Source: Halodesulfovibrio sp.
GTDB lineage: Bacteria; Desulfobacterota; Desulfovibrionia; Desulfovibrionales; Desulfovibrionaceae
Direction: 5' to 3'
DNA: 36,144 bases
NCBI RefSeq assembly: GCF_015482765.1
Contig: NZ_JADMLB010000009.1
Span: forward strand, 1-36,144
This document shows, piece after piece, positions 10,711 through 35,906 of the stretch. Each line of letters starts with the position of its first letter. The stretch's first letter is position 1. Under the pieces are notes generated by a model. The model had not been told where the DNA came from and did no database searches. It was given only the letters and a program-made list of their open reading frames with translations. The position numbers and the translations under genes are program-made.

Positions 10711-10717
10711 GCTTTTG

Positions 10718-11157: not shown

Positions 11158-11169
11158 ATTTATACTAAA

Positions 11170-11185
11170 ATCGTCTTTCGACGAT
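11170..11185. promoter_or_regulatory. Candidate ArsR operator 2 (upstream of acr3 promoter)
   Basis: ATCGTC-TTTC-GACGAT is a perfect palindrome with six-base arms. It matches the arms of operator 1 and nearly duplicates operator 3, which lies 56 bases downstream. Confidence 0.65.
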
Positions 11186-11195
11186 ATACGATATT

Positions 11196-11225
11196 TTGTC
11201 GAGTTAAAAATTTTTTAAATAGATT
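11196..11225 (+). promoter_or_regulatory. Candidate promoter of acr3
   Basis: TTGTCG (11196-11201) and TAGATT (11220-11225) are 18 bases apart. Operator 3 begins one base after the -10 box and operator 2 lies just upstream of the -35 box, so a bound repressor would bracket the promoter. Confidence 0.45.
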
Positions 11226-11241
11226 ATCGTCTTTCGACGAA
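11226..11241. promoter_or_regulatory. Candidate ArsR operator 3 (over acr3 transcription start)
   Basis: ATCGTC-TTTC-GACGAA repeats operator 2 with one mismatch in the last base. It lies directly downstream of the proposed -10 box. A wider dyad ATTATCG...CGATAAT surrounds it. Confidence 0.6.
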
Positions 11242-11262
11242 AATCGATAATGAGGAGAAAAA

Positions 11263-21900: not shown

Positions 21901-22619
21901 AGTGGCGTACCATTTGAAAGAACTGCGCCGTTAGGTACACCGGAGATTTGTATAGACAGAACTTCTGAACCGCCATCGGAGTCCTGAAGAGCAGAAGAGA
22001 TATCCAAAGGAATTGGAGAATCTTCAAAACCTGTTGCCGGCGCGACATTCAAAGAAGGAGCTTGCGCTTCAGGGACAAGCACGTTCTGTTGGGTTCCTGA
22101 CGTCGGTGGTGTAGGGCCTGTAGGCTCTCCGCCAGTTTCAGTAGGCGGTACTGTAGAAGGTTCTATTGGTTCAGAAGGAATAGGGCGCTCTATTCGAACA
22201 CTACCTTCATCTGCATTAATATTTCGTTCTGGGAACGTTGCACCACCCCCGCCAGCGCCAACCGCCGAACCGCCTCGGCCTCCAGTACCTTCTTGAGGGC
22301 TACCAGAATCAGGTGAAAAAACTGTTCCCGCGGTTTCTTCTTGTGCAGCATCTGAGGAACCACTGTCCGTAAAGTCTTGATGCTGTCCACCTTCACCGTC
22401 AGGTCTGTCATAATAGGCTATTTCATCTTCTCGAGTGCCTATAGGCTGCTCTTCAAAGCCGTAATCAGGACCAGATTGAAGAAACTCTTCAGCATCAAGA
22501 GCCTTAGCGTCCTGATTTACTTGTTCAGCCTGTTCTGCTGCCTTTGAATCCTGCTCACGACGTAATGATTTATCAGATTCTGCATCTATATTTGTAGGTG
22601 CTTTTTTTTTATCAGCCAT
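12978..22619 (-). CDS. Giant repetitive cadherin-like surface/secreted protein, probable type I secretion cargo
   Basis: A 3213-residue, very acidic protein. Residues 1 to about 185 are low-complexity, rich in Asp, Glu, Gln, Gly and Pro, without a signal peptide. About 26 tandem repeats of roughly 110 residues follow (about 186-3090). The repeat pattern is: EDT-x-IPL near the start, DTDGSETL, GVPxGATLSAGT, DGTWTLxPADLxGLTITPP, FSGDIxLTVTATSTE, and a VADTP linker. The Asp-rich DxDGSE motifs suggest Ca(II) binding, as in cadherin-like and T1SS-143-type repeats. A Gly/Pro hinge separates repeats 17 and 18. The last 123 residues are acidic and disordered-looking, with no RTX nonapeptide (GGxGxDxL). 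The ATG at 22619 has a GGGGGAAA ribosome site, and a GTG at 22634 abutting the previous gene is rejected. Last gene of the ABC-ABC-HlyD operon, hence probably its cargo, with a role in adhesion or biofilm. Confidence 0.85.
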   Translation of the reverse strand: MADKKKAPTNIDAESDKSLRREQDSKAAEQAEQVNQDAKALDAEEFLQSGPDYGFEEQPIGTREDEIAYYDRPDGEGGQHQDFTDSGSSDAAQEETAGTVFSPDSGSPQEGTGGRGGSAVGAGGGGATFPERNINADEGSVRIERPIPSEPIEPSTVPPTETGGEPTGPTPPTSGTQQNVLVPEAQAPSLNVAPATGFEDSPIPLDISSALQDSDGGSEVLSIQISGVPNGAVLSNGTPLGNGIWVLTPAELSGLTITPPPDSNVDFTLTVTATSTESNGDIATISAQLPVNVIGVADTPLLQAQLASGDEDIAANFTIDGALTDTDGSETLTYLISNVPSGATLSAGTDNGDGTWTLTADQVQGLQFTPPLHFSGSVSMLVTAIATEDDGDVARASTTVTAVYDPVADTPNASVEDVKGFEDTQIPLKLSASLVDQDGSETLTTVIEGVPSGAILSSGTDLGGGRWEVSPADLGSITILPPNDFSGDIPLTLVATSTEPDGSQAVSSNPFNVHVTGVADTPDLTVVPAGGTEDIVTPLSITSALNDLDGSETLELTIAGVPNGFTLSAGTDNGNGTWTLAPADLTGLSLTAPQDFSGNFDLTVTATATEADGDVATNVATLPVQIAAVADIPDVTAQDVNGTEDIALPLQLTAAATDIDGSESITQVVISGVPNGFTFNAGTDLGGGQWSIPPAQLSTLTLSAPQHYSGSVTLTVEATATDTGGVTATNSANFTASFAPVPDVPNVGATNVTGDEDTAIPLTLSSSLVDTDGSETLSLVITGVPSSATLSSGTDLGGGQWQVDVADLGSLTITPGLHFSGDIPLTLVATVTESDGTTATNSAPFNVHVVGVADTPGLTASLSPVDEDQNMPLNITGTLVDTDGSETLSYEVSGIPNGFTLTAGTDQGGGVYSLTPAELANLELVPPANFSGDVLLTVSVTTTEADGDTATVSTPVSGTFGGVADPPSTSVSNVSGDEDTQIPLALSAALTDTDGSETLTTVITGVPTGATLSSGTNLGNGKWSVDPADLATLEVTPPLHFSGTINMTLEATSTEATGDSTTVTNPFIVTVAPIPDAPNLATPPIVGNEDIPLDLNITSSLVDTDGSETLSLRIEGVPNGFTLSAGTDLGGGEWSLTPAQLNGLTMSMPQDYKGTFNLTVTATATEPDGSTADTQNIVPVTVNAVADIPALTVTPASTLEDNSVPLDISTATTDITGSESISKIIITGVPTGTTLSAGTEVSAGQWELTPAELTGLTLSPTPDSNVDFTLTVTSIAVEPNGSTAQNVASLPVSILGDADLPGIATSDASGNEDTWIPLTISGNLTDVDGSETLSFIVDGLPNGAQLNLGTQQPDGSWTISAGDIGNLSIRPPGNFSGTFDITATSVATENDGDVATNSAPITVTVDAVADRPRVVARNVNGVEDNDLALNLSANVRDPSEEIQSAVIRNVPSGFTVINGTDLGGGVWEVPADQLGTIELSPPQDFSGTVNLQFRVTTVEPSNGDTAVRSRNFSASFRAVADQPTVTVQDEVTDEDTAVALNLDSQLTDVDGSESLTLVISGVPNGAVLSAGVDNGNGTWTIDPADLGSLSFTPPLNFSGDIPLTLEATSTEASNQDAATNSATFNIHVVGVADTPGLVALDAHGNEDAAIPLTIRANLFDTDGSESLFVEFSNVPAGASFSAGTQLPNGNWRVPAADLSNLTITPPEHSNVDFTINVQALSVESDGDQAYSAPLPISISLRGVPDAPVIISNSTVGDEDTAIPVNFEVASGDTDGSETLSYVIYDLPNGASINVGTFIGNGKYSLTPSELQSLTITPPQDFAGNFDVSFDVVVQEDDGRQSTFSYTHPVEVTPVIDGIRPYPTARGLEDTAINLKVDPASRDSDGSETTEWVEISNIPTGAILSAGTETSPGSGVFRLTPAEFSGLTITPPPDSGDDFTLQVSSLIQEQDGSQEVRSGTLRVVVEADADIPNVSAQDITGPVGTDIPAQIASSLNDIDGSESLKLIIGGLAGTGIIPTEGLNLGGGNWLIDASSLPTLAFHDQGGGPDTDVPVTVTAISTETEGDQATNTATFTITTTPGGGGGGPGGPPVTPPTVTVTPPPTGDEDLDFPVGVSVDFGTDGSQYAVIISDLPPGASPNIGFYDPINDRWIIDGSNTAVLNNLEITPPPDFSGTFDFTISAVKTGNNGNTLIDSQTVTADIDPIVDTPNITLGTTNGTEDTPFNIDLNINPTDIDGSESVTSATISNLPSGATLSGTGVTDLGNGTYEVNLANINDIQFTPPPNGHGNFNFTVDAVISDSGTVTGSFSQNVGVNIAAVTDPAILTATDATGDEDTAIALTLDAQLVDTDGSEVMSTTITGVPSGALFSAGSNNGDGSWTFTQAQLSGLTFTPPPNANGDINMELTAFTMETSTGQVVTTTAPFTVSVTGVADTLIVDSQDSTGAEDTVIPMTLGFTQTDTDGSETVTAVLTGIPAGSTLSSGTQQPDGSWLVDGNDLATLTITPPLHFSGDINVHADITTTETDGDSLTEGTDFTVTVTPVADAPQLSTTPATGDEDTPINLDIQAALTDPSEVLTVSIAGVPAGATLSAGTQNPDGTWSVDPADLAGLTVTPPTNDNSDFTLTITATSEEPQTGETQQTVATLDVDVQGVADPVTITATDTTGDEESSIPITASFAYQDTDGSETVTAITVSGVPVGATLSAGTQNPDGTWTVDPADLSSLTITPAQNFSGDIPLTLDFLNEENDGDTSVTSENVTVTVTPVADAPTLTVQPTSGDEDTPIALDIQPALTDSGETLSVVIDNVPSGSTFSAGTQNPDGSWTFTPAELSGLTFTPPPEASGTFNLNVTAVSTEPDNNDTAQTSEQLTVTVDPVADTPVLSTSPASGDEDTAIPLDIQASSPDSGETISVTIDGIPSGATLSAGTDNMDGSWTLDAGDLAGLTLTPEPDFSGNITLNVTATSTDGTDQAVSTSSLVVDVEGQPDAPAFTVQDSNGTQDTPIALDIQAQTTAPGETLSVTIDSVPTGATLNAGTDNMNGSWTLDPADLSGLEITPPASFTGVINLGVTATVEQDGNTLDVTDSLDVTVSAPPAPFSFAAAPYMAIMASDAEEEPPIEASQEVAEYMDSLPVEEDENDPNEVLVAQQLDTNLNGAGSIGSDLDTMTQDEGQQQPDDLGGETPKTQGKEALPEPGPEAPNADSEITADTSTGEDEQQ
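16325..16400 (-). other. Gly/Pro-rich hinge inside the giant repetitive protein
   Basis: The minus strand encodes a run of six glycines followed by PGGPP and several PP pairs (TTTPGGGGGGPGGPPVTPP) around residue 2075. It lies between repeat 17, whose usual ED pair is replaced by GPVGTD, and repeat 18. It divides the stalk into arms of about 17 and 9 repeats. Confidence 0.7.
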
Positions 22620-22634
22620 AATTTCCCCCTGCAC

Positions 22635-23951
22635 TTACCGTTCTGTGAATCCCTTTTCTGTCAGCGTAAATATTGGCTTCAGTAGGTATTGTAGTACGGT
22701 TTTTTGTCCGGTAGTAATGTCCACTTCTGCGGTCATCCCTGGGAAAATCTGGCGTTTTGCGGACTTGTCTCCTATGTAGCTTCGTTCAGGGACTACTTCA
22801 CCTACATAGTACAACTCTCCGTTAGGTCCTGTAAACGTTGTCGGGCTTATATGGTCTAATGTTCCGGGCAATGCTCCGTATCTGGAGTAATCAAATGTAT
22901 CTATACGAATGGTTACAGGCTGCCCGACTTCGACAAAGCCAATGTCACGAGGGGAAATTTGAACTTCTACGATCAAATCCACATCAACAGGTACCACTTC
23001 AGCGACAATTTCACCCGGTGTTACAACAGCTCTTGGGCTTTGGAACGGTAGCTCTTTGACAATGCCTTTCGCAGGAGAAACTATGATGTGGCGCTGCAAA
23101 CTTGAACGACGTTCTTTAAGACGCAGTTTTGCTTCTGCAAGCTCAAGCAGAACTTTTGACCGTTCGCGTTGCGCTTCGGTGTAAATACCTTGTTTGGCGT
23201 TTTCTATCTGCTGTTTGACTTCCTCAATTTCTTTCAAAAGAACTTGTTGAGTACCTTTAAGCTCCGCCATTTCTTTGCGGAACTCAGCCTCACGCTGTTG
23301 AGCATTTAATAATTCAAGTTTTGATGTAATGTTCTGCTTGCCCAACGCCCTGTATAAACTGGAGACCTCAGCAGAGGATGTAAGCTGTCCACGAAGAACC
23401 GGAAGCTTTGCATCAATTGCGGCCAGTGTTTTTTCTTTCTGTTTCAACTGTTCATTCAAAGCCAATAGGCGGGTACGCATTTCTTCTTTTTGTGCGTAGA
23501 GCACCTGACGTTCTTGTAAAACAAACGGGTAATATGCTTTGCTGAATTTTGAAAAGTCTGCATTTCGACCTTCAACAAAGGCTGCCAAGCGCTCAGCTTC
23601 AAGTTCAAGATAAGCTGTACGGGAAACCAACTGATTTACATCTGTTTCAGCTTTTATCGGTTCAAATCGGGCAAGTACTTGTCCCTTGGATACTTCTTGT
23701 CCTTCTCTGACAAAAAGTTCAACAAGCTGGCCGCCTTCCAGCGCTTGAATCGTGATGATATCTCCAACAGGAATAACTTGTCCTCTAGTTCTGGCTACTT
23801 CTGGAACTTTAGCCAAGGAAGCCCAAAATAACATTCCAAAAACAAACATGATAATAAACCACGTAACTACCCGTAACGGGGAAGGGCGTCGGTGAGGCAT
23901 AACGCTTCTTTCTCGGAACATACTGTCGTGCTGTGATGATTTTGTATTCAT
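22635..23951 (-). CDS. HlyD-family type I secretion membrane-fusion protein
   Basis: A 438-residue adaptor with a cytoplasmic N-terminus of about 27 residues and one membrane helix (about 28-46). A first lipoyl half follows (QALEGGQLVELFVREGQEVSKGQVLARFEP), then long coiled coils with many Glu, Lys, Leu and Gln (about 105-290), a second lipoyl half (HIIVSPAKGIVKELPFQSP, PGEIVAEVVPVD) and the conserved C-terminal barrel (GQPVTIRIDTFDYSRYGALPG, FPGMTAEVDI). This is the LapC/HlyD layout at normal length. It should bridge the ABC exporter and a TolC-like channel. The ATG at 23951 has GGAGAAGAGGA upstream. It starts 12 bases after the second ABC gene and ends 15 bases before the chosen start of the giant gene, so it is in the same operon. 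Confidence 0.93.
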   Translation of the reverse strand: MNTKSSQHDSMFRERSVMPHRRPSPLRVVTWFIIMFVFGMLFWASLAKVPEVARTRGQVIPVGDIITIQALEGGQLVELFVREGQEVSKGQVLARFEPIKAETDVNQLVSRTAYLELEAERLAAFVEGRNADFSKFSKAYYPFVLQERQVLYAQKEEMRTRLLALNEQLKQKEKTLAAIDAKLPVLRGQLTSSAEVSSLYRALGKQNITSKLELLNAQQREAEFRKEMAELKGTQQVLLKEIEEVKQQIENAKQGIYTEAQRERSKVLLELAEAKLRLKERRSSLQRHIIVSPAKGIVKELPFQSPRAVVTPGEIVAEVVPVDVDLIVEVQISPRDIGFVEVGQPVTIRIDTFDYSRYGALPGTLDHISPTTFTGPNGELYYVGEVVPERSYIGDKSAKRQIFPGMTAEVDITTGQKTVLQYLLKPIFTLTEKGFTER

Positions 23952-23963: not shown

Positions 23964-26093
23964 TTATGCCGTTGCTGGTGGCTGTGGTGAATTGTTGTCG
24001 TCGCTTGCTTTTTTACTGGCTATCTTCCCGAAACTTATTGGCTCACCTCGATCAAGGATGAGCACTTTGTCGCATCGTTCAAGAATACGAATGTCATGAG
24101 ATGCAACGATAATTGTCCTGTTTCCTCTAGAATTATTTAAAAATTCCAAGAAGTTTTTCATGTATTTTTCACCATGGAATATTGGTGTATCCATAACGAG
24201 AAGTGGTGGTTTCTTCAGCAACATGCGTGCAATACAAACGGCTTGCTGCATGTCCTGCGGGAGGGTGAATCCTCTCTCAGTTACCATAAATGTATCCAGT
24301 CCGTGAGAAAGTGTGTCGAGTAAATCACCCGCACCAGCTTCTTTCAGTGCTTCTTTTATGTTTTCATCCGTTGCACCGGCTTTTGCTAAAAGCATGTTAC
24401 TACGTAGCGTACCACGGAATAATGTATCGTTTTCCGGCATAAATCCAAGCCATGAGCGAAGGTCTTCAGGGCTAAACTGACGAATATCGCGCCCGCCGAT
24501 CTGAACGCTTCCCGCCTGTGGCTGTAACAGCCCGGTTATAACACTAAGCAGTGTTGTTTTTCCGCTACCGTTTGGACCGGTAATTCCGATAACTTCTCCT
24601 TCTTCAACTTGGAAAGAAACTCCGCCAAGAGCCGGATCTCTGTCAGCTACATGTCGAAGTACAACCCTGCTGATACGAACGGTGGCTGGCAGTCTTTTCA
24701 ACGGAGAAATAAGAGAAGGATCAAGCTTTTCACCTTGCAGTTGCATTAAGCGGTCAATTTGCTGTGCAGAAAGACGTAGCTGGTAATAGCGACTGAATGA
24801 GGCTGCAAAACTTTGAACCGGAGCTGTAATGCGCCAAATAAGCATCATAGAAGCAATAAGACCACCTGGCGTTGTAGTTCCATTAAGTACCAGCAACAAA
24901 CCAATTCCAAGCGTTGCCAGTGCCAGTAAGGAAGCAGCTGTGCGCACGATAACTCGTAACGCAGAGGCAAGCATGGAGTATTTCTTATTGGCAACGGCAG
25001 AACGAATGATGATGCGATAAAAGTTTGTTATCCAAATTTCTTCAATGCCTGTTGCCACTAAATCTTTATATTTATCAATGGTGTCTTGCTGTATTGAGCT
25101 GCGTTCTGCATTTAAGGAAGCAGCAAAACGCATAGCTTTATCTTCCATAATACTGAGTATCGGAATTATGATGGCGTAAAAAGCAAGGCCGATAATTGGA
25201 ACGAGAACTAAAGGGCCGCCTAAGATGCCGATGGCTATAAAGTAAATTACGATAAAAGGGGCATCTAATATTGCTGTTGCAAGGTTCCCAGAAACAAATT
25301 CCCGTACTCTTTCAAGGTCACGTAAGCGGAGGATATGTGAGTTTGTGCTTGAGCGAAGAAGGACAGAGAGGGGGAGGGAGAGGATTTTACCAAAGGACTC
25401 TGTACCTGAAAGATAAGCTAATCTTCCGGCAGAATAGGTTTGCATGCGAGATCGTACGATTCTAAAAAGTGTTCCAAACGCAATTGCCAGAATTACTCCT
25501 GCCCCAAGATAGAAAAGGGAACTTACGGAGTAAGCAGGGATAGCCCGGTCATAGACGTAACGCATAAAGAATGGCAGTGCGAGACCGACTATGTTTACAA
25601 AGAAGCTGGCTAGGAATGCTCCGTTTATTTGTTTACGCATCGTAGACATAGTCCACGAAAGCCATGAGGTATTAGGTGGTGGCTTAATAGCTTCTAGCTG
25701 TGGATAAACTAAGACCAATAGGCCATCATTAGGTATTTCAGTGTCTGGCATTACAGCAGAAATAGTACCGTTTGAAGCTAAATGCAGACCATGGCCGGCT
25801 ATTTTTTCATAAGTGCTGGCGTCATGAACGCTTGTCTCAAGCCCGAGACGCGCAAGCGTATCGCACAGCCCTTCAAGACTATACGAATTATCGACAGGGA
25901 GTGCTGCCAAAAGTTGCTTTGAGGTACCGTCCCAACAAATTGCAGGGAGAAGTTCGCTAAGCGCTTCAGCATAGGGTGTGCCGTTCAGTTTGGCATTTGC
26001 AAGTGTGATAAGGAAATTGCCATCACAAACTACATCATCGTCACACCGAGATGCTGTCCGAAATTGATACTGCTCCTGAATATTCACAGTCAT
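23964..26093 (-). CDS. Type I secretion ABC transporter with C39-like domain (LapB-like), altered ATPase motifs
   Basis: A 709-residue half-transporter. Residues 1 to about 140 look like the inactive C39-peptidase-like domain of LapB/HlyB-type exporters. Six membrane helices follow (about 150-430), then the nucleotide-binding domain. Walker A is intact (GPNGSGKT, Lys512) and the H-loop His666 is present (ASHD). The signature LSGGQ is replaced by LPQDM (611-615), the Q-loop Gln by Glu (FMPEND), and the catalytic Glu after Walker B Asp635 by Thr636 (LLVMDTP). The ATG at 26093 has AGGGGA seven bases upstream and starts ten bases after the previous stop. An upstream start at 26138 would overlap that gene and is rejected. 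It probably pairs with the ABC protein encoded just before it. Confidence 0.9.
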   Translation of the reverse strand: MTVNIQEQYQFRTASRCDDDVVCDGNFLITLANAKLNGTPYAEALSELLPAICWDGTSKQLLAALPVDNSYSLEGLCDTLARLGLETSVHDASTYEKIAGHGLHLASNGTISAVMPDTEIPNDGLLVLVYPQLEAIKPPPNTSWLSWTMSTMRKQINGAFLASFFVNIVGLALPFFMRYVYDRAIPAYSVSSLFYLGAGVILAIAFGTLFRIVRSRMQTYSAGRLAYLSGTESFGKILSLPLSVLLRSSTNSHILRLRDLERVREFVSGNLATAILDAPFIVIYFIAIGILGGPLVLVPIIGLAFYAIIIPILSIMEDKAMRFAASLNAERSSIQQDTIDKYKDLVATGIEEIWITNFYRIIIRSAVANKKYSMLASALRVIVRTAASLLALATLGIGLLLVLNGTTTPGGLIASMMLIWRITAPVQSFAASFSRYYQLRLSAQQIDRLMQLQGEKLDPSLISPLKRLPATVRISRVVLRHVADRDPALGGVSFQVEEGEVIGITGPNGSGKTTLLSVITGLLQPQAGSVQIGGRDIRQFSPEDLRSWLGFMPENDTLFRGTLRSNMLLAKAGATDENIKEALKEAGAGDLLDTLSHGLDTFMVTERGFTLPQDMQQAVCIARMLLKKPPLLVMDTPIFHGEKYMKNFLEFLNNSRGNRTIIVASHDIRILERCDKVLILDRGEPISFGKIASKKASDDNNSPQPPATA

Positions 26094-26103
26094 GATGATT
26101 CCC

Positions 26104-27753
26104 CTAGTTTGCTTTGGAACGTATGTTACAGATTTCATCCATAGAGAGACGGTGAGGGAAATTGTTAAGAATAATAGGATCAGTAGAGAATATAATAACA
26201 GTCAGGTCTGTAAGAGAATTAAGCAGGTTAACAATCTGTTTTTTACCGGAAATATCTATTCCTTCATCTGCTTCATTTAAAATGAGGATTTTGGGACGGT
26301 TTATTAGTGCACGAATGATTGCAATACGCTGAATCGTCCCCGCTTCAAGCGGGCCACCTAGCATATCACCAACTCGTGTTTGAAAGCCGTTGGGAAGAGA
26401 GTAGATAAACGGTGATAATCCAATATCTTCTGCTAACTCAAGTGCCGGACGCTCGTTCGTAGGTGTGTATAAAGAGATATTTTCAAGAATTGAGCCGCGG
26501 AATATTTCACTGCGTCTGGTGACATAGCCAACAGATTTGCGATAGGTGGTCCTGTTGTAGGCTGAAAGTGCATGTCCCCCAACAAGGAATGTTCCTTCTT
26601 TTGGAGCGACCGTGCCGATCATAAGCCCCGTAAACAACGGGAGACATAGCCCAGAAGAAGGGTTGAAACTAATCTTTTCTCCATTTGCAACAGAAAGAGA
26701 AAATGCAACATCTGACTTATCGCGGGTCACAAGAGCGTTCTCTAGATAAATTGAACCGTCAATAAGTGTCGTTTCAGATTCTGCATCAAATACGTCTTGT
26801 TCTTCGGTCTTCCAAAAATCTTCAATATGTTCTTTGGCAACCCAAGTTCTCTGTACTTGCGTCCACACAACAAGAAGAGCGGTAATAGGCGCAAGGCTTC
26901 GGCCGGCAAGGATAGTACAGGCGGCTAATCCCCCTGTTGTCAGATGTCCGTTGATGACAAGTAACGCACCGACAATAACGGTCAGCACTGTTGTTAAAGA
27001 ACCGAGTAGAGCAACAAATGCACCGAACTGCTGACTCAATCTGTCCAATCGAGTACGCTTCGTCACAAGTTTTTGTGTTTTATCACGGAAAATTCGTGCA
27101 GACATGCTTTCTCCCCCCAAACTTTTAATCGGGGTGAGAGCATTAAGAATATTTGTCACATAGTTCATCCGATCATCTTCTACTTCACTTGTTGCTTTAT
27201 ACGCTTTGTGCAGCGCTGTACCTGCATAAAGAGTGGAGTATGCTGCTACAACAAAAAGAAGAAGTGGGACGAAAACCAGTGTGCCGCCAATGTACCAAAT
27301 GGCTGCAAGAAAAAGCACAGAAAAAGGTAAATCAATCAGAGCAAGTGAAGTTTGTCCCGCATAATGATCACGAAGACTGCTGATATCACTAAAGCGTTGC
27401 TTTAGAGAGCCGCTGCCTAAATTTTTAACTGAGGCGACACTGCAACGGAATATCTTCCTCATGGCTTGTACGGCTGATTCACATTCAAATGCTTCAGCAT
27501 AGAGAGTTAGCAGATAGGTGCGGATGAAACGCAGTCCACCCTCAAGCAGGATAGCTATCGTAGCACCCAAGAAGAGCATGGTTGCGGTGCTAAAAGCTTT
27601 ACTGGGAAGTATCCTGTCATATACTTGCAAAAGAACAACAGGAATAGCCAGACTGAGTATATTAATGAGCGTGCTTAGTAGGATAATGTCAACACGTATC
27701 CCTAACTCAGGCTTTTTAAAGGACATTTTCGCTTTGGAAGCGTCTGGATACAT
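26104..27753 (-). CDS. ABC half-transporter with degenerate ATPase domain, first gene of the secretion operon
   Basis: A 549-residue protein with six membrane helices of the ABC exporter type (RVDIILLSTLINILSLAIPV, LQVYDRILPSKAFSTATML near the N-terminus) and no C39-like domain. The C-terminal nucleotide-binding domain is degenerate. Where Walker A should be is NPSSGLCL (364-371), with Cys370 in place of the lysine. The signature is LEAGT (469-473). The Walker B Asp is Asn493, while the following Glu494 is kept (ILILNEADEGID). The H-loop His is Thr524 (FSTDP). The overall fold remains readable and there is no frameshift, so this looks like a maintained non-hydrolysing partner, not a pseudogene. 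The ATG at 27753 has AAGGAG five bases upstream, which is preferred over the frame start at 27798. Confidence 0.88.
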   Translation of the reverse strand: MYPDASKAKMSFKKPELGIRVDIILLSTLINILSLAIPVVLLQVYDRILPSKAFSTATMLFLGATIAILLEGGLRFIRTYLLTLYAEAFECESAVQAMRKIFRCSVASVKNLGSGSLKQRFSDISSLRDHYAGQTSLALIDLPFSVLFLAAIWYIGGTLVFVPLLLFVVAAYSTLYAGTALHKAYKATSEVEDDRMNYVTNILNALTPIKSLGGESMSARIFRDKTQKLVTKRTRLDRLSQQFGAFVALLGSLTTVLTVIVGALLVINGHLTTGGLAACTILAGRSLAPITALLVVWTQVQRTWVAKEHIEDFWKTEEQDVFDAESETTLIDGSIYLENALVTRDKSDVAFSLSVANGEKISFNPSSGLCLPLFTGLMIGTVAPKEGTFLVGGHALSAYNRTTYRKSVGYVTRRSEIFRGSILENISLYTPTNERPALELAEDIGLSPFIYSLPNGFQTRVGDMLGGPLEAGTIQRIAIIRALINRPKILILNEADEGIDISGKKQIVNLLNSLTDLTVIIFSTDPIILNNFPHRLSMDEICNIRSKAN

Positions 27754-27817
27754 AAGCGCTCCTTGTAGGCATTCGTAGTTACTACGATTACTATACAACT
27801 AGCGTTTATCTTTTACA

Positions 27818-27935: not shown

Positions 27936-29438
27936 TTAATTCAGATCGATCCAGAGTGTTTTGGTTTCTGTATACTGATCATGAGCCTGAATGCCGTTGT
28001 CTCTACCTCCGAAGCCGGACATCTTGTAGCCGCCAAATGGTGTAGTAGCGTCACCTTCGCAGAAGCAGTTAACGGAGACTGTTCCGGCTTTCAAAGCTCG
28101 TCCATATTGATGAGCTTTTTTTACGCTATCTGTAAACAGCGTTGCTTGTAAGCCATATTCAGTGTCATTTGCGAGGGCAAGAGCCTCTTCATCTGAATCA
28201 ACAGGCATAATTGCTGTTACAGGGCCAAAAATTTCTTCTTTAGCTATGGTTGCATCTTTCACGACGGATTCAAATACTGTCGGAGGAATGAATAAACCAC
28301 TTCCGATTGCAAGAGGTTCACCACCAGTTAGTATTTTCCCACCTTCCTTTGTACCCTGCTCAATGTAGGACATAACCGTTTCAAAATGTCCTTTGCTGAC
28401 CATAGAACCTAAATTATGAGTTGGCTCGAAAGGATCGCCAGTACTCCAGTTTTGTTCTATTTCTTGGAGGAACAATTCAACAAATTCATCCTTTCGACTA
28501 CGCGGAATAATTAATCGTGAGTTACCAGTACAATTTTGTCCCATATTCCAAAATGATGCCGCCGCAGCATTTTCAACAACTTTTGAGTAGTCTTTCACAT
28601 CATCCAGAACCACAAACGGACTCTTACCACCAAGCTCAAGAACAATCTTTTTTAAGTTACTTTGCGATGAATATTGTAAGAATTTTCGCCCGACAACTGT
28701 TGAACCTGTAAAAGATACTACATCTACATCAGGATGTAATCCTAACGCTTCACCGGCAATTCCCCCAGGACCTGGAAGAACGTTAACAACACCATCGGGA
28801 ATACCGGCTTCTGAAGCAAGTTCCGCAATACGTAACGTACTTAACGCCGTCACACTCGCAGGCTTAACAACAACGCTGTTTCCTTCTGCCAATGCAGGAC
28901 CCATTTTCCACCCAGCCATCATGAGTGGAAAGTTCCATGGAAGAACGCATGCAACAACGCCAATGGCTTCACGAACAATTAATCCGACTGCATCCAGTCC
29001 TGTAGGAGCAAGAGAGTCATACCGTTTGTCAGCAATTTCGGCATGCCATTCAAATGAATGAATTGTTTCTGGAAGATCTACTGTCAAGCATTCTGAAACT
29101 GGCTTTCCGCTATCATAACTTTCCAAAACAGCAAGTTCGACCATATTGGCTCGCATCAGTTCACAAAACTTGTGGAGAATTTCTTTTCTTTCTGTCGGGT
29201 GCTTTTGACTCCAGTCCCCACGTTCAAAAGCGGCTCGGGCGCATTGTACTGCGTAGTCAACGTCTTCAACACCGCATGCAGCAATTTCTGCGATTATATT
29301 TCCGGTAGCTGGGTTTACAGTTTCCATTCTTTTCCCAGAACGTGCCGCAACAAATTCACCGTTAATGAATGCCTCTGTTGGAAGGGTGAGATGTTCAGCT
29401 ATGTTCTGATATTCAGCTCTTGTAAGAAAGTCGGACAT
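27936..29438 (-). CDS. NAD(P)-dependent aldehyde dehydrogenase
   Basis: A 500-residue soluble enzyme of the ALDH superfamily at standard length. Cofactor motifs PWNFPLMMAGWKMGPAL and FTGSTVVG are present, with the general base Glu268 in ELGGKSP and the catalytic nucleophile Cys303 in GQNCTGN, at nearly the same positions as in well-studied ALDHs. EEIFGPV and PFGGYKMSGFGRD-like (here PFGGYKMSGFGGRD) blocks close the domain. It resembles PuuC-like and betaine- or semialdehyde-type enzymes. In this cluster it may oxidise a semialdehyde product such as 2-oxoglutarate semialdehyde, which is inference. The ATG at 29438 has AAGGAG upstream, and an upstream frame start at 29486 is rejected. It follows the TRAP permease gene by 87 bases containing inverted repeats. 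Confidence 0.92.
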   Translation of the reverse strand: MSDFLTRAEYQNIAEHLTLPTEAFINGEFVAARSGKRMETVNPATGNIIAEIAACGVEDVDYAVQCARAAFERGDWSQKHPTERKEILHKFCELMRANMVELAVLESYDSGKPVSECLTVDLPETIHSFEWHAEIADKRYDSLAPTGLDAVGLIVREAIGVVACVLPWNFPLMMAGWKMGPALAEGNSVVVKPASVTALSTLRIAELASEAGIPDGVVNVLPGPGGIAGEALGLHPDVDVVSFTGSTVVGRKFLQYSSQSNLKKIVLELGGKSPFVVLDDVKDYSKVVENAAAASFWNMGQNCTGNSRLIIPRSRKDEFVELFLQEIEQNWSTGDPFEPTHNLGSMVSKGHFETVMSYIEQGTKEGGKILTGGEPLAIGSGLFIPPTVFESVVKDATIAKEEIFGPVTAIMPVDSDEEALALANDTEYGLQATLFTDSVKKAHQYGRALKAGTVSVNCFCEGDATTPFGGYKMSGFGGRDNGIQAHDQYTETKTLWIDLN

Positions 29439-29471
29439 TAAGATTCTCCTTGTAAGATACAAAACTGCTTT

Positions 29472-29496
29472 GTTCATCGTGAACATTCGCTCACGA
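29472..29496. promoter_or_regulatory. Compound inverted repeat before the aldehyde dehydrogenase gene
   Basis: GTTCA-TCG-TGAAC (29472-29484) is a perfect dyad. Overlapping it, TCGTGA (29477-29482) pairs with TCACGA (29491-29496). The site lies 35-60 bases upstream of the dehydrogenase start and looks like a regulator-binding site, for instance for a GntR-type repressor. No regulator gene is visible nearby. Confidence 0.45.
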
Positions 29497-29525
29497 ATGG
29501 TGAATATAATATTTTGTTCAGCGTG

Positions 29526-30830
29526 CTAAAATTTAACACCCAATAATACTCTAGGAAGGAAAAGGGACAGATCTGTCCAGTACGTAGTAAGGAGCAACGT
29601 CGGAAGCCATGCGAAAATGATCATATAGAATGTCGGGGAAAGCATCTTTGTCACCTTACAACCGGCAACTCGTGCTCCGAGGTATAGCATTGGGGCTGTA
29701 GGAGGAGTAACTAATCCCATGCCTAAGTTCACACCGAGAATCGCTGCAAACTGCACAGGATGAATACCTAAATGTGTTACTACTGGAAGTAACACAGGGG
29801 TACACAATAATGTACCGCTTGTATCATCCATAAGCATTCCAATGATCACCATGAAAAGGTTAACCATCAGCAGCATAACGATTTTACTGTCAGATACTGA
29901 GTTGAGGAAAGTAAGAATGGTTCCTGGAAGATCTTCAAGGACATAGATACGACTTAAGATCATAACGACAAACAACATGCACATAACAACACCGGATGTA
30001 ACAGATGTTTTGACGAGCACTTTGGGAAAGTTTTCTTTGTTAAGACCTTTGTAGACCCAAAATCCTACAGGAATTGAGTAGAGAACCGCAATGCCTGACG
30101 CTTCTGTAGGAGTCATAATTCCTGCATAAATACCGCCCAGTACAATTACTGGCATGAGTAAAGCAGGGGTGGCTCCGCCAACACGTTTACTCATTTCTTG
30201 CAGCTTTGCTGTAACAGATTGCGGTTCAGAGAGAACTAAGTTCTTTTCGTTACGTAATAGCACTGCGTTAACGATACATAAAAGAATGGTCAGTAGAATA
30301 CCGGGGCCAACGGTTGCCAAGAAGCAACTTAAAACAGACTGGTATGAAATCCATGCATAAATAATTTGAATACAACTTGGAGGTATCAGTAAGCCAAGCG
30401 GGCACGCGTTAACCAGCAGTGCCGCAGAAAGACCTTCAGGATAGTTGGCTTTCTTCATTTCAGGCAGCATTACTGCTCCGATACAGGAAAGAGTCGCTGC
30501 CGCAGCGCCCGAAATGGAACCGAAAATTGCGCTTGCTGCAACCGCAACAGTACCTAAGCCACTTTTTCTGTCGCCAATTAAAATCTTAATGAGATCAACA
30601 AGGGGCTTTGCAATTTTACCACGCTCCATTAATCCGCCTGCCATAATGAACAATGGAACAGCAAGAAGCGCTACCGTATTCATTTTACTGTATCCAACCG
30701 GGAGCAAGGATGTGACATTGTAGTCTCCAGTGAAGACCATCCACATAATGGTTGCAGTAAAGCAAAATGGAACAGGGATACCAATGAGCAGGGTGCCGAT
30801 AAGAATTACGATCGAAATTAGGACGTCCAT
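29526..30830 (-). CDS. dctM: TRAP transporter large permease subunit (DctM)
   Basis: A 434-residue inner-membrane protein with about 12 hydrophobic helices and typical DctM landmarks: AVPLFIMAGGLMERGKIAKPLVDL, AAASAIFGSISGAAAATLSCIGAVMLPEMKKA-like stretch (here AASAIFGSISGAAAATLS), NYPEGLSAALLVNACPLGLLIPPS, and GVNLGMGLVTPPTAPMLYLG near the end. It carries substrate through the membrane with the sodium gradient. It overlaps the DctQ gene by 13 bases, indicating translational coupling. GGAGAG lies six bases before the ATG. The substrate is not predictable from this subunit. Confidence 0.93.
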   Translation of the reverse strand: MDVLISIVILIGTLLIGIPVPFCFTATIMWMVFTGDYNVTSLLPVGYSKMNTVALLAVPLFIMAGGLMERGKIAKPLVDLIKILIGDRKSGLGTVAVAASAIFGSISGAAAATLSCIGAVMLPEMKKANYPEGLSAALLVNACPLGLLIPPSCIQIIYAWISYQSVLSCFLATVGPGILLTILLCIVNAVLLRNEKNLVLSEPQSVTAKLQEMSKRVGGATPALLMPVIVLGGIYAGIMTPTEASGIAVLYSIPVGFWVYKGLNKENFPKVLVKTSVTSGVVMCMLFVVMILSRIYVLEDLPGTILTFLNSVSDSKIVMLLMVNLFMVIIGMLMDDTSGTLLCTPVLLPVVTHLGIHPVQFAAILGVNLGMGLVTPPTAPMLYLGARVAGCKVTKMLSPTFYMIIFAWLPTLLLTTYWTDLSLFLPRVLLGVKF

Positions 30831-31372
30831 TCTGAACTCTCCTCTACAGGCTTAATGAGATAACTTTTATGAATAATCGCCTGTACTGCCTTGCAGCAAT
30901 GAACTGCGGCGTAGAATGTCATAAGAATAAATCCAATTGCGATAGCACTTTGAGGAACAATCAGTGGTATTCCCCAGCCCATGGTTTTTCCCGAAAATTT
31001 AAGCTGCCATGAAATGAGTGACCATCCCCAATAGCTAATATTGGCTGCAAAGATCACTTCTAGAAGCCGCGCTATTAAGTTTACGTATGCCGCGGCCTTG
31101 GGGTGGTTGTTAATTAAGGCAATTTGAATAATATCTGCTTTAATTTGTGAATCTTCATAACTTCCGTATGCTGCGCCAATAAAGTACATCCAGAAAGCAA
31201 CGATCATTACGAGCTCATCATAGGCAAAAAGATCTGTTTTCAGCACATACCGCATAAAAACAACTCCGCTTATGATGGCAACAATTGACAAGCTGGTTGT
31301 TATTAGAATTGCGCGTTCAAGTTTAAGAAGTAATTCATATAACGCGATGCAGATTTTCTTAAAATATTTCAT
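30818..31372 (-). CDS. dctQ: TRAP transporter small permease subunit (DctQ)
   Basis: A 184-residue protein with four hydrophobic helices, typical of DctQ: a first helix after LLKLERAILITTSLSIVAII, then FMRYVLKTDLFAYDELVMIVAFWMYFIG with the conserved WxxFIG-like region, and a late GWGIPLIVPQSAIAIGF helix. The ATG at 31372 has AGGAGC upstream. A frame start at 31462 would add 30 residues through a hairpin and is rejected. It should form the membrane complex with DctM. Confidence 0.88.
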   Translation of the reverse strand: MKYFKKICIALYELLLKLERAILITTSLSIVAIISGVVFMRYVLKTDLFAYDELVMIVAFWMYFIGAAYGSYEDSQIKADIIQIALINNHPKAAAYVNLIARLLEVIFAANISYWGWSLISWQLKFSGKTMGWGIPLIVPQSAIAIGFILMTFYAAVHCCKAVQAIIHKSYLIKPVEESSEWTS

Positions 31373-31441
31373 TAAAGCTCCTGCGGTTAGGCAGAAATAG
31401 CAGTTCGCTATAACTAGGCGTAAGTTTGCTAAGGTAAGGTG

Positions 31442-31488
31442 CTGCCGACTGGTCCGACGCATTTATTAACGATGAACCAGTCGGGCAG
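31442..31488 (-). other. Hairpin between dctP and dctQ
   Basis: CTGCCGACTGGT (31442-31453) pairs with ACCAGTCGGGCAG (31476-31488) with one bulged G. No T-run follows. It sits in the 153-base gap after the binding-protein gene, where such a stem can protect the dctP message or cause partial termination, allowing more binding protein than permease. Confidence 0.6.
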
Positions 31489-31525
31489 TAATATGTTTTG
31501 GTGGGGTCGGAACCAAATCCGCTAA

Positions 31526-32530
31526 CTAGATTTCACCAAGATCTTTACGTACTGCGTTAAAGATCTCTTCGCCGTACAGTGAGTACAGTTGCGGCCAAAT
31601 TTTCTGATGCATGAAATCAGCCATAGCTTTTGACTGTTCAGGGGTAGGACGCAAGATAGTCAGACCGGCTTCTTCCATTTTTTCCATGTAGAAGTTGTCT
31701 TGTTTTTCTGCCAACGCAAAGCTTGCAGCCGCCGTTTGTTTAAAAACATCACGAACGATTTGAGCATCAGCGCCAAGTTTTTTGTAGATGTCTTTGCCCA
31801 TGATGAATGCGTTACATTCTACAAAGCTATTGTACGCTACATAATATTTTTGAATATCTTTAAAGGTAAGGTAGTTAACATCTGGAGTGCCACCAATCCA
31901 ACCATCGCAAACACCTGTCTGCATGGCACTGTAAATGTCTGCCCAGTTAATTGTTGTTGTACGGAAATGCATTTCTTTTCCAGAAAGTTGGAACACTTTC
32001 ATAGGAGGGACTCGGATAAGAATACCTTTATCAACATTCGGGTTAAACGGATCTTTAGGCTCGACTTTACTGCCTAATCCGATAAGACCGATGACATTAA
32101 AGCCAAAAAATTCAATATTCTTCTCATCAAGAATTTTTTTGAAAACATTACTGAAGTTAGAGTCGTATGAGAAAACTTTTGGAATGTCTGCGTAGTCCTT
32201 AACAATGTAAGGAATGCAGTGAGATTCGAGGCGGATGTCGTATTCACTAGGAAGGTTTACCTGTCCCATATCGACAGAGCCGCGCATGATATCTTGGAAG
32301 AGCAGGGTGTAGTCACCAAGCTGATCAGCAGGGTAGATTTTAATTTTTACGCGTCCGTCTGTTTTTTGTTCTACTTCAGCAGCTGCCTTATAAAGCAACT
32401 TTGTAGACGGATGTTCCTCTGGGTAGTGACCTGCAAACTTGATTGTGATCGCAAATGCGGAACTTGCTAAAAAAACAAACAATAATGCTGATACAGCAAC
32501 AGCTGCAAAATACTTCTTGATATCTCTCAC
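31526..32530 (-). CDS. dctP: TRAP transporter periplasmic solute-binding protein (DctP)
   Basis: A 334-residue exported protein with a signal peptide (about 1-27, ending SSAFA). DctP features include ITIKFAGHYPEEHPSTKLLY at the mature N-terminus, VEQKTDGRVKIKIYPADQLGD, the IMRGSVDMGQV segment, and IRVPPMKVFQLSGKEM carrying the family arginine that usually contacts a ligand carboxylate. MQTGVCDGWIGG follows. A carboxylate-bearing substrate is therefore likely. The start is GTG at 32530 with GGGAGGAT upstream. It lies 72 bases after the serine-dehydratase-like gene and before the two permease genes. Confidence 0.92.
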   Translation of the reverse strand: MRDIKKYFAAVAVSALLFVFLASSAFAITIKFAGHYPEEHPSTKLLYKAAAEVEQKTDGRVKIKIYPADQLGDYTLLFQDIMRGSVDMGQVNLPSEYDIRLESHCIPYIVKDYADIPKVFSYDSNFSNVFKKILDEKNIEFFGFNVIGLIGLGSKVEPKDPFNPNVDKGILIRVPPMKVFQLSGKEMHFRTTTINWADIYSAMQTGVCDGWIGGTPDVNYLTFKDIQKYYVAYNSFVECNAFIMGKDIYKKLGADAQIVRDVFKQTAAASFALAEKQDNFYMEKMEEAGLTILRPTPEQSKAMADFMHQKIWPQLYSLYGEEIFNAVRKDLGEI

Positions 32531-32602
32531 GATATCCTCCCGAAAGGTAATACGTTTTCTTTACAAACCCTCTGTATATATTTTGGAACAGACTCGTATG
32601 AG

Positions 32603-34186
32603 TTAACTGTTTTTCCCGGAGTTAGATCCGTATGTTTGTAGTAGGTTTTGAGCGGTAGGGCTTTGAGCAAGTCCACCTAAGCCGGTACATCTAAGCTCCA
32701 GCGGCATTTGCTGAGAAATTTGTTGTAAAGCCTCTATTGTTTCATCAAGAGGGATACTATTTGTAAAACCTGCCTGAATTATTGCGGCACATGAGACCGC
32801 GTTAACTGCACCAAGTATATTTCTTCCCAGACAGGGAACTTCAACCCGATCACAAATTGTGTCGCAGACAATCCCGAGCATGTTTTGTAATGCCATTGAC
32901 GCAGCATCCACGGCCTGCTGTGCGGAACCTCCGAGAAGGTTAACTATTGCGGCAGCTGTCATGGCACTGGCAGAGCCACATTCAACCTGACAGCCACCTT
33001 CTTCTCCGGCGAACGTGGCTGTTTCAGCGATAAACACACCTACAATTCCAGCTGCTAATAATGCCTCGGCTACTTCCTGTTCGTTCTTCTCAAACTCTTC
33101 AGCAACCGCCCATACTGTTCCGCCAAGAACTCCGCAGGCACCGGCAGTTGGAGCAGCGACTATTACTTCCATGGCACTTTTACAGTCCATGATGGCAGTT
33201 ACATTTGTTGTCACATTGTGAAGACAGGAGCCTAATAAAGGAGAGGAGCCTGCTTGCAGTAAAAGAGGACTTTGTGCCGTTAATATTCTGTCTGAATAGG
33301 TTGTTCCTTTCCTTCCGATCTCAATGCTTTGCCGCATTGTTTGGGCGAGCTCTGTCATCAAAGAAGATAATTCAGATCGACTCTTCCAGCTTCTTGCCGC
33401 TTCATAATCACAGGCAAGATCACTAAGCGTTATGTGTGGGTCAGAGGTTGAAGACAGCATTTCTTTCGCCGTCCGGAAAGGAACAGGTGAATCAAATGCC
33501 AATACAGGCATAACAGGGGACATTTTTTGAATAGTAATTGTTTCAAATGCAGTCGAAAGCTGAGTAATTGTTTCAGCAGTAAGCGGAGATACACTTGTAA
33601 CAACGTAAATACGGTGAGTTGCTGTTTCTGTGGGAATCACCTGCAAAATGTTTGAAGGAAGAGAGTCCGCCTCAAACAAAACCAAATCACTTTTTGCAGA
33701 AGTAAAGATGGTTGTGTATGTGTCCCCGAAGAGTGATACAGAAGCGCCATTAATTGTTCTGATTTCAATAGCACCGCCGCCTAGTGATACCGCTTCCATT
33801 GTTTGATACTGTTGATCGCTGCCTTCTTCATAAAGCTCTAGAAGATAGGTATTAGGATGTGATGTAGAAACGTCTTCAACTTTGAACTCTACATGGATAC
33901 CAAGCTCAACAGCTCTTTTCTTTGCAAAAGGAAGCAGCTCACTGTCTGGTGAATCTCCAAGTAAACCTCCAACAAAGCCCATTGCTGAACCTTGCCCATC
34001 GTAACTCAGACTCAGTGCTTCAGATTTATCAAAGCGAACAATAGCTCTTTCCGGTTGTCCATTCAGAAAATCACGAGCAAGTAACCCAATACGAAGTGCT
34101 GCAGCAACATGTGAGCTTGAACAACCACGCATCACTGGTCCTATTACTTCATTGAAAATACTGGCAGGAATTAATCGGGAAGCCAT
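32603..34186 (-). CDS. Fused iron-sulfur L-serine dehydratase-like enzyme
   Basis: A 527-residue protein with both domains of type 2 L-serine dehydratase in one chain. The beta-like domain comes first (SIFNEVIGPVMRGCSSSHVAAALRIG in part, resembling the GPSSSHT motif), then an ACT-like central region and the alpha catalytic domain (KGTTYSDRILTAQ, APTAGACGVLGG, GGCQVECGSASAM, GIVCDTICDRVEVPCLGRN). The Cys in PTAGACG and the CD...VPC pair 11 residues apart match the [4Fe-4S] ligands of the family. Deviations are GCSSSHV for GPSSSHT and CDTICDRV for CDPVAGLV, so the substrate may not be serine. Two adjacent ATGs exist; the second (34186) is six bases from AGGAG and is preferred over 34189. It probably performs a beta-elimination or deamination step. 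Confidence 0.8.
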   Translation of the reverse strand: MASRLIPASIFNEVIGPVMRGCSSSHVAAALRIGLLARDFLNGQPERAIVRFDKSEALSLSYDGQGSAMGFVGGLLGDSPDSELLPFAKKRAVELGIHVEFKVEDVSTSHPNTYLLELYEEGSDQQYQTMEAVSLGGGAIEIRTINGASVSLFGDTYTTIFTSAKSDLVLFEADSLPSNILQVIPTETATHRIYVVTSVSPLTAETITQLSTAFETITIQKMSPVMPVLAFDSPVPFRTAKEMLSSTSDPHITLSDLACDYEAARSWKSRSELSSLMTELAQTMRQSIEIGRKGTTYSDRILTAQSPLLLQAGSSPLLGSCLHNVTTNVTAIMDCKSAMEVIVAAPTAGACGVLGGTVWAVAEEFEKNEQEVAEALLAAGIVGVFIAETATFAGEEGGCQVECGSASAMTAAAIVNLLGGSAQQAVDAASMALQNMLGIVCDTICDRVEVPCLGRNILGAVNAVSCAAIIQAGFTNSIPLDETIEALQQISQQMPLELRCTGLGGLAQSPTAQNLLQTYGSNSGKNS

Positions 34187-34213
34187 CATCTACTCCTTTA
34201 CTTCTTCGTCAAT

Positions 34214-35599: not shown

Positions 35600-35600
35600 G

Positions 35601-35906
35601 TTATAAACCTTCGTGGATAGAAATTACAGGGGCTGTATGTTGTCGTGTTACCTGCATGCCTTCAGAGACCTTTACTAAACATCCTTGCTGGTTTGGCACG
35701 CCATCGATAGTTACGAGGCATTCAAAACACACTCCCATTTGGCAATAGCCAGAACGTTCCTGTCCTGAAAGGGGAGTTGTGCGAATGTACGAGTGACCGA
35801 CCTCCATGACTGCTGCCGTAACAGTGATCCCAGACGGGACAGAAACCTTCACGCCGTCAATCGTAATAGAAACAGTTTTTGGACTCGAAAACGCTGCCTT
35901 AGGCAT
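35601..35906 (-). CDS. HcnA-like [2Fe-2S] ferredoxin-type subunit
   Basis: A 101-residue soluble protein with a plant-type ferredoxin-like pattern Cys55-x4-Cys60-x2-Cys63-x12-Cys76 (GYCQMGVCFECLVTIDG, then QQGC). That matches HcnA and the small subunits of opine and hydroxyproline dehydrogenases. It would pass electrons from the flavin subunit encoded immediately downstream. AGAGAG lies seven bases before the ATG. The leader upstream contains two overlapping hairpins. Confidence 0.88.
   Translation of the reverse strand: MPKAAFSSPKTVSITIDGVKVSVPSGITVTAAVMEVGHSYIRTTPLSGQERSGYCQMGVCFECLVTIDGVPNQQGCLVKVSEGMQVTRQHTAPVISIHEGL

Follow-up and report, generated by a model that had tools for sequence, protein, structure and literature searches.

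A probable two-subunit ABC exporter with complementary motif losses and a single ATP site, encoded beside a giant adhesin gene in Halodesulfovibrio

The window analysed here, a stretch of 36,144 nt from Halodesulfovibrio sp. (contig G000:C47 of a 3.7-Mb assembly), carries on its minus strand an operon encoding two adjacent ATP-binding cassette (ABC) half-transporters, here called ABC-A and ABC-B, an HlyD-type adaptor and a 3218-amino-acid (aa) adhesin, transcribed in that order. ABC-A and ABC-B have lost complementary parts of their nucleotide-binding domains (NBDs), and we consider it likely, from the motifs and their inheritance, that the operon specifies a dedicated type I exporter for the giant adhesin, whose motor would be an obligate ABC-A:ABC-B heterodimer with a single ATP site. 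The operon has the following features.

26104..27798, minus strand: ABC-A, 564 aa from TTG 27798 or 549 aa from ATG 27753; exporter half without Walker A, proposed donor of signature and D-loop
26638..26664, minus strand: stretch replacing Walker A in ABC-A (NPSSGLCLP), motif lost, from alignment with HlyB and relatives
26335..26349, minus strand: ABC-A signature, LEAGT; its second Gly is retained in 34/34 ABC-A rows
26272..26277, minus strand: ABC-A Walker B, Asn-Glu; Asp gone and Glu retained, both residues invariant in the five close-clade rows
26254..26256, minus strand: ABC-A D-loop Asp, present in 33/33 rows with a letter there, the 34th row being truncated
26182..26184, minus strand: ABC-A H-loop position, Thr for His, from alignment
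23964..26138, minus strand: ABC-B, 724 aa, inner ATG 26093; N-terminal extension of ~150 aa, exporter half and NBD bearing Walker A and B
24552..24578, minus strand: ABC-B Walker A, GPNGSGKTT, intact, from alignment
24432..24434, minus strand: ABC-B Q-loop position, Glu for Gln, from alignment
24249..24263, minus strand: ABC-B signature position, LPQDM, motif lost, from alignment
24186..24191, minus strand: ABC-B Walker B, Asp650-Thr651 (635-636 in the earlier numbering), catalytic Glu replaced
24096..24098, minus strand: ABC-B H-loop His, retained, from alignment
22635..23951, minus strand: HlyD-type periplasmic adaptor, above the curated cut-off of TIGR01843
12978..22634, minus strand: presumed cargo, 3218-aa, Cys-free, acidic adhesin with tandem-95 repeats and without GGxGxD repeats; the start common to relatives is ATG 22619

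Both ABC open reading frames (ORFs) are intact where an initial annotation of this DNA had placed them, as adjacent half-transporter genes in an operon with HlyD and cargo, and every residue it named was found at the number it gave. That earlier numbering starts ABC-A at ATG 27753, 45 nt inside the TTG ORF beginning at 27798, and ABC-B at residue 16 of the 724-aa ORF, which overlaps ABC-A by 35 nt or begins at its inner ATG. Counted in this way, ABC-A has Cys370, Asn493, Glu494, Thr524 and LEAGT, and ABC-B has Lys512, Asp635, Thr636, Glu in PEND at the Q-loop, LPQDM and His666. Loss of the Walker A lysine in ABC-A, where PSSGLCLPL replaces the P-loop, was upheld by alignment with HlyB and by MAFFT alignments of relatives, but Cys370, which had been taken for the lysine position, aligns in both with the Gly preceding the lysine. 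The lysine column holds Leu371 and is Leu in 5/5 members of a close clade (this genome, G222, G137, G278 and G171), and an exchange of Lys for Cys as in Pdr5 is ruled out on that ground. All the ABC-A losses recur in the five close-clade members, which, together with purifying selection in those relatives where it is measurable, makes them more than chance. The Thr codon of ABC-B is ACA and that of the four close relatives GAA or GAC; at least two base changes separate them, so the Thr is not one miscalled base. At the A-loop position, close-clade ABC-B proteins have Tyr (one) or His (four) and ABC-A proteins have no aromatic residue. Domain matches were ABC_membrane and a weak ABC_tran for ABC-A, and both domains for ABC-B. 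Within ABC-A, the run NEADEGID (26254-26277) and several signature residues are invariant in the 5/5 close-clade rows though Lys, Asp and His are gone; the Walker A columns vary.

Relatives were sought in this genome and 58 relatives, in 297 and then 348 genomes of the order, in a phylum sample of 395 genomes and, by translated search, in 72,556 plasmids. The tabulated set comprises 34 ABC-A and 33 ABC-B rows from 24 genomes of the order, one more of the phylum, four Azospirillum plasmids and five Vibrio plasmids. ABC-A relatives were present in 24/348 genomes of the order, the close clade scoring above 980 bits and the remainder below 350; in the 395 genomes of the phylum sample the same threshold was passed by this genome and G433 only. 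Within the genus, this genome alone carries the pair, which is missing from the other nine of ten genomes. A wider profile search of the phylum sample matched 45/395 genomes, with this genome at 751 bits and G433 at 554; the other matches listed, in frames of at least 702 aa, scored 288-369 bits, which is the level of this genome's canonical LapB (366 bits). Scanning genomes with conserved peptides gave four loci, one a close relative in Desulfovibrio sp. UBA2564 (ortholog 53-54% identical) and three partial, at 21-24% identity. On plasmids, relatives were found in four Azospirillum replicons, as one fused gene, and in six of Vibrio, as two genes in the five read; the sixth, NZ_CP117031, is a partial match outside the counts, and 9/10 plasmid loci were read. 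The Vibrio proteins are annotated in their records as 'ABC transporter transmembrane domain-containing protein'.

The ABC-ABC-HlyD order of the window recurs among these genomes, as do the losses in most pairs. Two different half-transporters are encoded together in the window and 33 relatives, and HlyD adjoins ABC-B or the fusion at 34/34 loci. In seven of the 34 loci A and B are fused in a single ORF, in three Desulfovibrionales genomes (1315-1329 aa) and the four Azospirillum plasmids (1354-1378 aa). At the 20 unfused loci measured, the two genes overlap in 8 and lie 424-1351 nt apart in 12; in G055 they stand on two contigs. Every close-clade locus has the order A-B-HlyD-giant adhesin, the adhesin being incomplete in G278 (contig end) and G222 (end of the retrieved stretch), and all nine plasmid loci read have HlyD and a neighbouring gene for an immunoglobulin-like (Ig-like) or VCBS protein, 9.7-17.3 kb long. 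On a V. navarrensis plasmid typed as conjugative (L145), genes for a group II intron reverse transcriptase and a transposase lie immediately upstream of the pair, and this system may move between strains. Two loci could reflect decay or an assembly fault: the ABC-B of G207 is split over two frames (L064, 12657-14845) and was omitted from trees and counts, and the ABC-A of G153 ends before the H-loop (L066, 14929-16491).

The losses are complementary across the tabulated rows. In the site that would form from the Walker side of B and the signature side of A, B retains the Walker A Lys in 33/33 rows and the Walker B Asp in 33/33, and A retains the second signature Gly in 34/34 and the D-loop Asp in 33/33, one truncated row being uncounted. 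In the opposite site, A retains Lys in 9/34 rows, Walker B Asp in 26/34, Glu in 13/34 and His in 4/33, and B retains the second signature Gly in 5/33 and the D-loop Asp in 11/33. As controls, nine canonical LapB-type rows retain every element, and 13 ABC rows of other type I secretion system (T1SS) types retain Lys, Gln, Asp, Glu, D-loop Asp and His in 13/13 and the second signature Gly in 12/13, several with an altered first Gly or Ser. Taken with ABC anatomy, these losses leave most pairs able to form an ATP site in the A:B combination alone, and no more than one; in the close clade, an A homodimer would have no P-loop and a B homodimer no signature. The earlier proposal of one composite site and one dead site holds insofar as one site keeps Walker A, the Walker B Asp and the partner's signature Gly, the other being dismantled to varying degrees. 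Even the better site of the window does not carry all consensus residues, since ABC-B has neither the Glu nor the Q-loop Gln.

The way in which each branch departs from consensus differs. Walker A, Asp and His are gone from the A proteins of the window's clade, and their B partners lack the signature and Gln and retain His; the catalytic Glu position of B holds Glu (G222, G137), Asp (G278, G171) or Thr (the window, 1/33 B rows). Vibrio B proteins have Asn for Glu in 5/5 and His in 5/5. Other branches are the reverse of the window and Vibrio branch, with Glu kept and His given up: in a large Desulfovibrionaceae-level clade, the 15 A rows have lost the Walker A Lys, Glu (to Arg, Lys or Gln) and His (one row having no letter there), and the 14 B rows have Asn for His in 14/14, Glu in 14/14 and no second signature Gly in 13/14. 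The four Azospirillum B proteins retain Lys, Gln, Asp, Glu and His and have LSPSL as signature; their A partners retain Lys and Glu and have lost His, Gln and two Walker A Gly, the signature reading LPRGA with the second Gly retained. In G433, Walker A is retained by both proteins. The A protein has Glu in place of Gln, Asn at the catalytic Glu position and Asp at that of His; the B protein retains Gln, Asp and Glu, but its signature Gly is lost and its His position holds Glu. Walker A and Asp-Glu are present in both halves of the fused pairs of one genus (G047, G069 and G074), with LPxGxxQ-like signatures in both, and the B His is Gln in G074 and G055. On whether homologous pairs have intact motifs, which would have marked the window's changes as private decay, the result is mixed: these fused pairs retain Walker A and Asp-Glu, but most pairs share the degeneration.

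These comparisons change what defines the group. A missing catalytic Glu is not its mark, the four closest orthologs having Glu, Glu, Asp and Asp and the Vibrio proteins Asn in 5/5; the missing Glu here is one state of a trend that includes Asp in two relatives and Asn in Vibrio. Complementary loss also defines it better than split catalytic residues do; Glu494 of ABC-A sits in the dead site. Over the 33 B rows, both Glu and His are present in 8, Glu only in 17, His only in 8 and neither in 0, a pattern, never both lost in B, that is suggestive only.

The idea of a distinct subclass was supported by phylogeny. With motif columns removed, a careful IQ-TREE analysis of 47 rows placed ABC-A in one clade (20 rows, support 100/100) and ABC-B in another (19 rows, 100/99); this tree used 47/89 rows, leaving out 31 named rows and 11 other-T1SS rows. 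In a larger tree with all 34 A and 33 B rows, which left out 10 other-T1SS rows, the A and B clades had Shimodaira-Hasegawa-like approximate likelihood ratio test (SH-aLRT) supports of 100 and 98, and both stood apart from canonical LapB. Sub-clades match between A and B: the window's clade, the large Desulfovibrionaceae-level clade, the fused group of one genus, Azospirillum and Vibrio. The pair belongs to a distinct A/B lineage of wide but sparse distribution, and fusions in two lineages support a heterodimer. The window's clade was sister to Vibrio (A 100/99, B 89/89), where long branches meet; when Vibrio was left out, its A clade joined the fused group (89). At least two changes on the tree are needed to account for the A proteins that have no Walker A Lys.

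Selection was gauged by the ratio of nonsynonymous to synonymous rates (dN/dS, Nei-Gojobori) over the last 230 residues of ABC-A and the last 230-235 of ABC-B, rough estimates with dS above 1 in several. For the ABC-A NBD, dN/dS was 0.098 (G278/G171), 0.069 (G016/G187) and 0.092 (G181/G339), with Vibrio pairs at 0.080, 0.107, 0.164 and 0.189; for ABC-B it was 0.042-0.064 and 0.056-0.152. Whole fused proteins gave 0.173 and 0.211 in Azospirillum and 0.103 for the Desulfovibrionales pair. This genome's ABC-A is 44-50% identical to its orthologs in the NBD and 53-60% in the transmembrane domain (TMD). The degenerate A NBD is clearly constrained where measured, and is evolving somewhat faster than its TMD.

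By profile score, both proteins were closest to the LapB type without falling within it. TIGR03375 (LssB/LapB) was the best NCBIfam model for both, at 368.5 bits for ABC-B and 305.7 for ABC-A, below the curated cut-off of 693.1; the canonical LapB of the same genome, as a control, scored 945.2, and a fused homolog (L076) 771.0 with both halves together. Scores for ABC-B and ABC-A were 245.1 and 216.8 bits against the HlyB model TIGR01846 (cut-off 725.55) and 248.7 and 222.4 against the PrtD model TIGR01842 (cut-off 510.15). The HlyD-type adaptor reached 375.7 bits with TIGR01843, above the cut-off of 208.65.

In the mechanism we propose for the heterodimeric exporter, ABC-B would give Walker A, the Walker B Asp and the H-loop His, and ABC-A would give the signature and D-loop from the opposite side. 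The second site, with no P-loop, Walker B Asp, H-loop His or signature, probably never holds ATP, and HlyD and an unlinked TolC-type channel would complete the conduit. This genome's single site has no catalytic Glu; ATP should still be able to close the NBDs, but their reopening would be slow and would depend either on residual hydrolysis at a low rate or on the route through His that has been discussed for HlyB. A closed (outward-open) state that lasts long is plausible for the threading of a single chain of 3200 residues. In HlyB, H662A is described as leaving <0.1% activity and the argument is made that the base is not E631, while elsewhere E631 and H662 are called a catalytic dyad, and which of Glu and His is the key residue is debated (PMC6222333). 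Given these results, a site with His and no Glu is conceivable as a slow ATPase; the same chemistry does not readily account for the B proteins of the large clade, which bear Glu and have no His. We would tentatively entertain, at somewhat less than even odds, a glutamate-free one-site exporter in the window and Vibrio branch that spends at most one ATP per cycle, either through the H-loop His or as a slowly resetting ATP-gated conduit. Glu494 lies in the dead site of ABC-A and, by ABC anatomy, would not be expected to act in the other one; on that ground it was rejected as a base for the good site.

Several observations weigh against the one-site heterodimer. The Q-loop Gln is lost from ABC-B in 5/5 close-clade rows, and the ABC-A signature is itself non-canonical, LExGx. 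Glu494 is invariant in the dead site throughout the close clade (5/5), for which simple relaxation is no explanation. Nor is there a clean sweep of losses, the Walker B Asp of A being mostly retained outside the window's clade and part of Vibrio, and 'only one site' fails family-wide, since the pairs of G047, G069, G074 and G055 retain both the A Walker A Lys and the B second signature Gly. In B, loss of Glu and loss of His are each confined to a small number of branches, with at least two changes each, so 'never both' may be history and not constraint. Between this genome and its four orthologs dS was saturated in 14/16 comparisons and 2.3 and 3.3 in the other two, giving no dN/dS estimate. 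AlphaFold2 runs on two-row alignments (window and L092) gave a mean predicted local distance difference test (pLDDT) score of 40.7 for ABC-A and 38.4 for ABC-B, too low for the models to be used.

Decay offers a different account, in which the exporter is losing function in this strain and the exchange of Glu for Thr is a loss private to it, the system still working in relatives. The single Thr among 33 B rows, the presence of the pair in 1/10 genomes of the genus and the lack of a dN/dS estimate for this genome would fit it, and a laboratory strain of D. vulgaris is described as having lost biofilm through one change in a T1SS ABC ATPase domain (PMC5646257). We nonetheless regard it as unlikely: all four genes are open, the 9.6-kb adhesin gene included, and loss of the Glu is tolerated elsewhere (Asp in two orthologs, Asn in 5/5 Vibrio pairs). 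The ABC-B tip is not long, at 0.33 against 0.27, 0.27 and 0.41 in the 47-row tree and 0.31 against 0.34 (G222) and 0.27 (G137) without Vibrio; the ABC-A tip, 0.45-0.51, exceeds those of G222 and G137 (0.33-0.38) but is like or under those of G278 and G171 from the same fork. For the pair as a whole, a private pseudogene was judged unlikely, given the recurrence and the dN/dS of relatives. A more serious rival, though one we rate as doubtful, is an ATP-gated conduit whose site binds ATP to open and hydrolyses little, most of the energy coming from folding or ion binding of the adhesin outside. The only Walker A site has no Glu in 8/10 pairs of the window and Vibrio branch, the presumed cargo is one giant chain, and a D-loop change is reported to have made TAP a nucleotide-gated facilitator (PMC7756269). 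Set against this, His, Lys, Asp and the partner's signature Gly are conserved in the branch, as if hydrolysis mattered, and GGxGxD calcium repeats number 0 in the five cargo proteins, two of them incomplete.

Two further readings seem very improbable. If ABC-A were a non-ATPase accessory to an ABC-B homodimer, or if both partnered further ABC proteins, for example this genome's canonical LapB, the genes for that LapB, an HlyD, a channel and a LapG-type peptidase, together on another contig, would supply candidates; but B lacks its own signature Gly (5/33 retain it) and mostly the D-loop Asp, A keeps exactly those elements, and the A-B fusions and regular pairing speak for the two as partners. 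It is just as hard to credit that the signature Glu of ABC-A (Glu470 in the earlier numbering), at the Ser place that reaches the partner's ATP site, replaces the catalytic Glu in trans. Glu occupies the Ser position in the five close-clade rows and in 0/29 other ABC-A rows, and an opposite-chain Ser of HlyB, S607, was treated as part of the quantum region at the ATP site (PMC6222333). Yet Vibrio B proteins have Asn for Glu with Ser at the A signature, and two orthologs have both carboxylates. The signature Ser, moreover, contacts the gamma-phosphate and not the in-line water.

The proposed heterodimer resembles the homodimeric T1SS exporters LapB/LssB, HlyB and PrtD in its exporter TMD and NBD, HlyD and giant adhesin as presumed cargo, and differs in having two different subunits, one ATP site by motif and scores far under their cut-offs. 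Type I secretion is usually presented as homodimeric apart from MARTX systems. The initial annotation's statement that known type I exporters are homodimers is not the whole picture, since RtxB and RtxE are two ABC proteins (PMC3034196) and heterodimeric TmrAB is counted as a T1SS in one review (PMC8277102). Also on record are the Desulfovibrio T1SS DVU1017 (PMC5646257) and, in Legionella, a locus that encodes two ABC proteins (PMC6959600). MARTX systems of Vibrio (RtxB/RtxD/RtxE) share the two different ABC proteins, an HlyD-type adaptor, a tolC outside the locus and a giant cargo; they differ in an rtxBDE operon divergent from the toxin operon and an RTX cargo, and the accessible part of their description does not mention complementary motif loss (PMC3034196). 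The window has the order A-B-HlyD and not rtxB-rtxD-rtxE, and no RTX cargo, which sets it apart from MARTX in gene order and cargo.

Heterodimeric TM287/288, TmrAB, TAP1/2 and BmrCD likewise have one consensus and one degenerate composite site with polarity set by subunit, but export small molecules or peptides, and ATP binding is described as persisting at their degenerate site (PMC7756269). Here, in contrast, the Walker A Lys is gone in 25/34 A rows and this genome's better site has no Glu. In Pdr5, the Walker A Lys, Walker B and H-loop of NBD1 and the signature of NBD2 (LNVEQ) are all changed, and why many ABC transporters keep a dead ATP site is called unclear in the same source (PMC7756269). 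Pdr5-type proteins are single-chain, reverse-topology drug pumps with a canonical second site, convergent at most; the NBD-TMD order of the PDR family in one chain is not found here, the TMD preceding the NBD in both proteins. To our knowledge, Pdr5 is the most extensive dismantling of one site known. In the literature searched, mostly without subscription papers, no title or abstract dealt with complementary NBD loss in T1SS exporters, and the system is probably an undescribed variant of type I exporter, heterodimeric and with one ATP site, encoded next to giant adhesins. Type I secretion would gain from it a heterodimeric class, tied to giant adhesins of sulfate reducers, Azospirillum and Vibrio. 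Within it the family reads as a graded series in protein secretion, from Walker A and Asp-Glu in both halves (fused, one genus) through intermediates (Azospirillum, G433) to pairs with one site and Glu or His gone; some pairs are single fused chains, which could be purified as one protein. Two different adjacent ABC proteins and HlyD also occur at other loci (L091, G011:C24, 5412-8890, and L085-L089); in L091, which falls outside the A and B clades, the signatures are LPLGV and LPVGI and the other motifs are intact in both proteins.

The five close-clade adhesins (two incomplete) start with MAD, have no Cys and are 13-18% acidic and 1-2% basic in residues; the GGxGxD repeats of a Lap-type RTX cargo were found in 0 of the 5, and tandem-95 repeats in both adhesins scanned. 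An N-terminal EQP(F/I)G region (window 22300-22634) is conserved in the five and could serve as an anchor or in recognition for secretion. The operon itself contains no gene for an outer membrane channel. Of the genome's six open frames with OEP domains, one adjoins a metal-efflux set in the window and another is next to canonical LapB on contig C54, which encodes LapB, HlyD, the outer membrane channel and a LapG-type peptidase together.

The metal-efflux set (2646-12333) comprises a TolC-type protein, a 723-aa CusB-like adaptor (heavy-metal-binding and DUF3347 domains), a 1316-aa RND pump matching ACR_tran in three stretches, an ArsR-type regulator and a permease of the SBF family, possibly for arsenite export. 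On the other side, a catabolic cluster (27936-35906) adjoins the exporter genes, with an aldehyde-dehydrogenase-like gene, a serine dehydratase, a TRAP-type transporter (with a DctP domain and, judged by eye, two likely membrane components) and an oxidoreductase of FAD/BFD-2Fe-2S type that has a sarcosine-oxidase A3 domain and a small subunit, likely of ferredoxin type.

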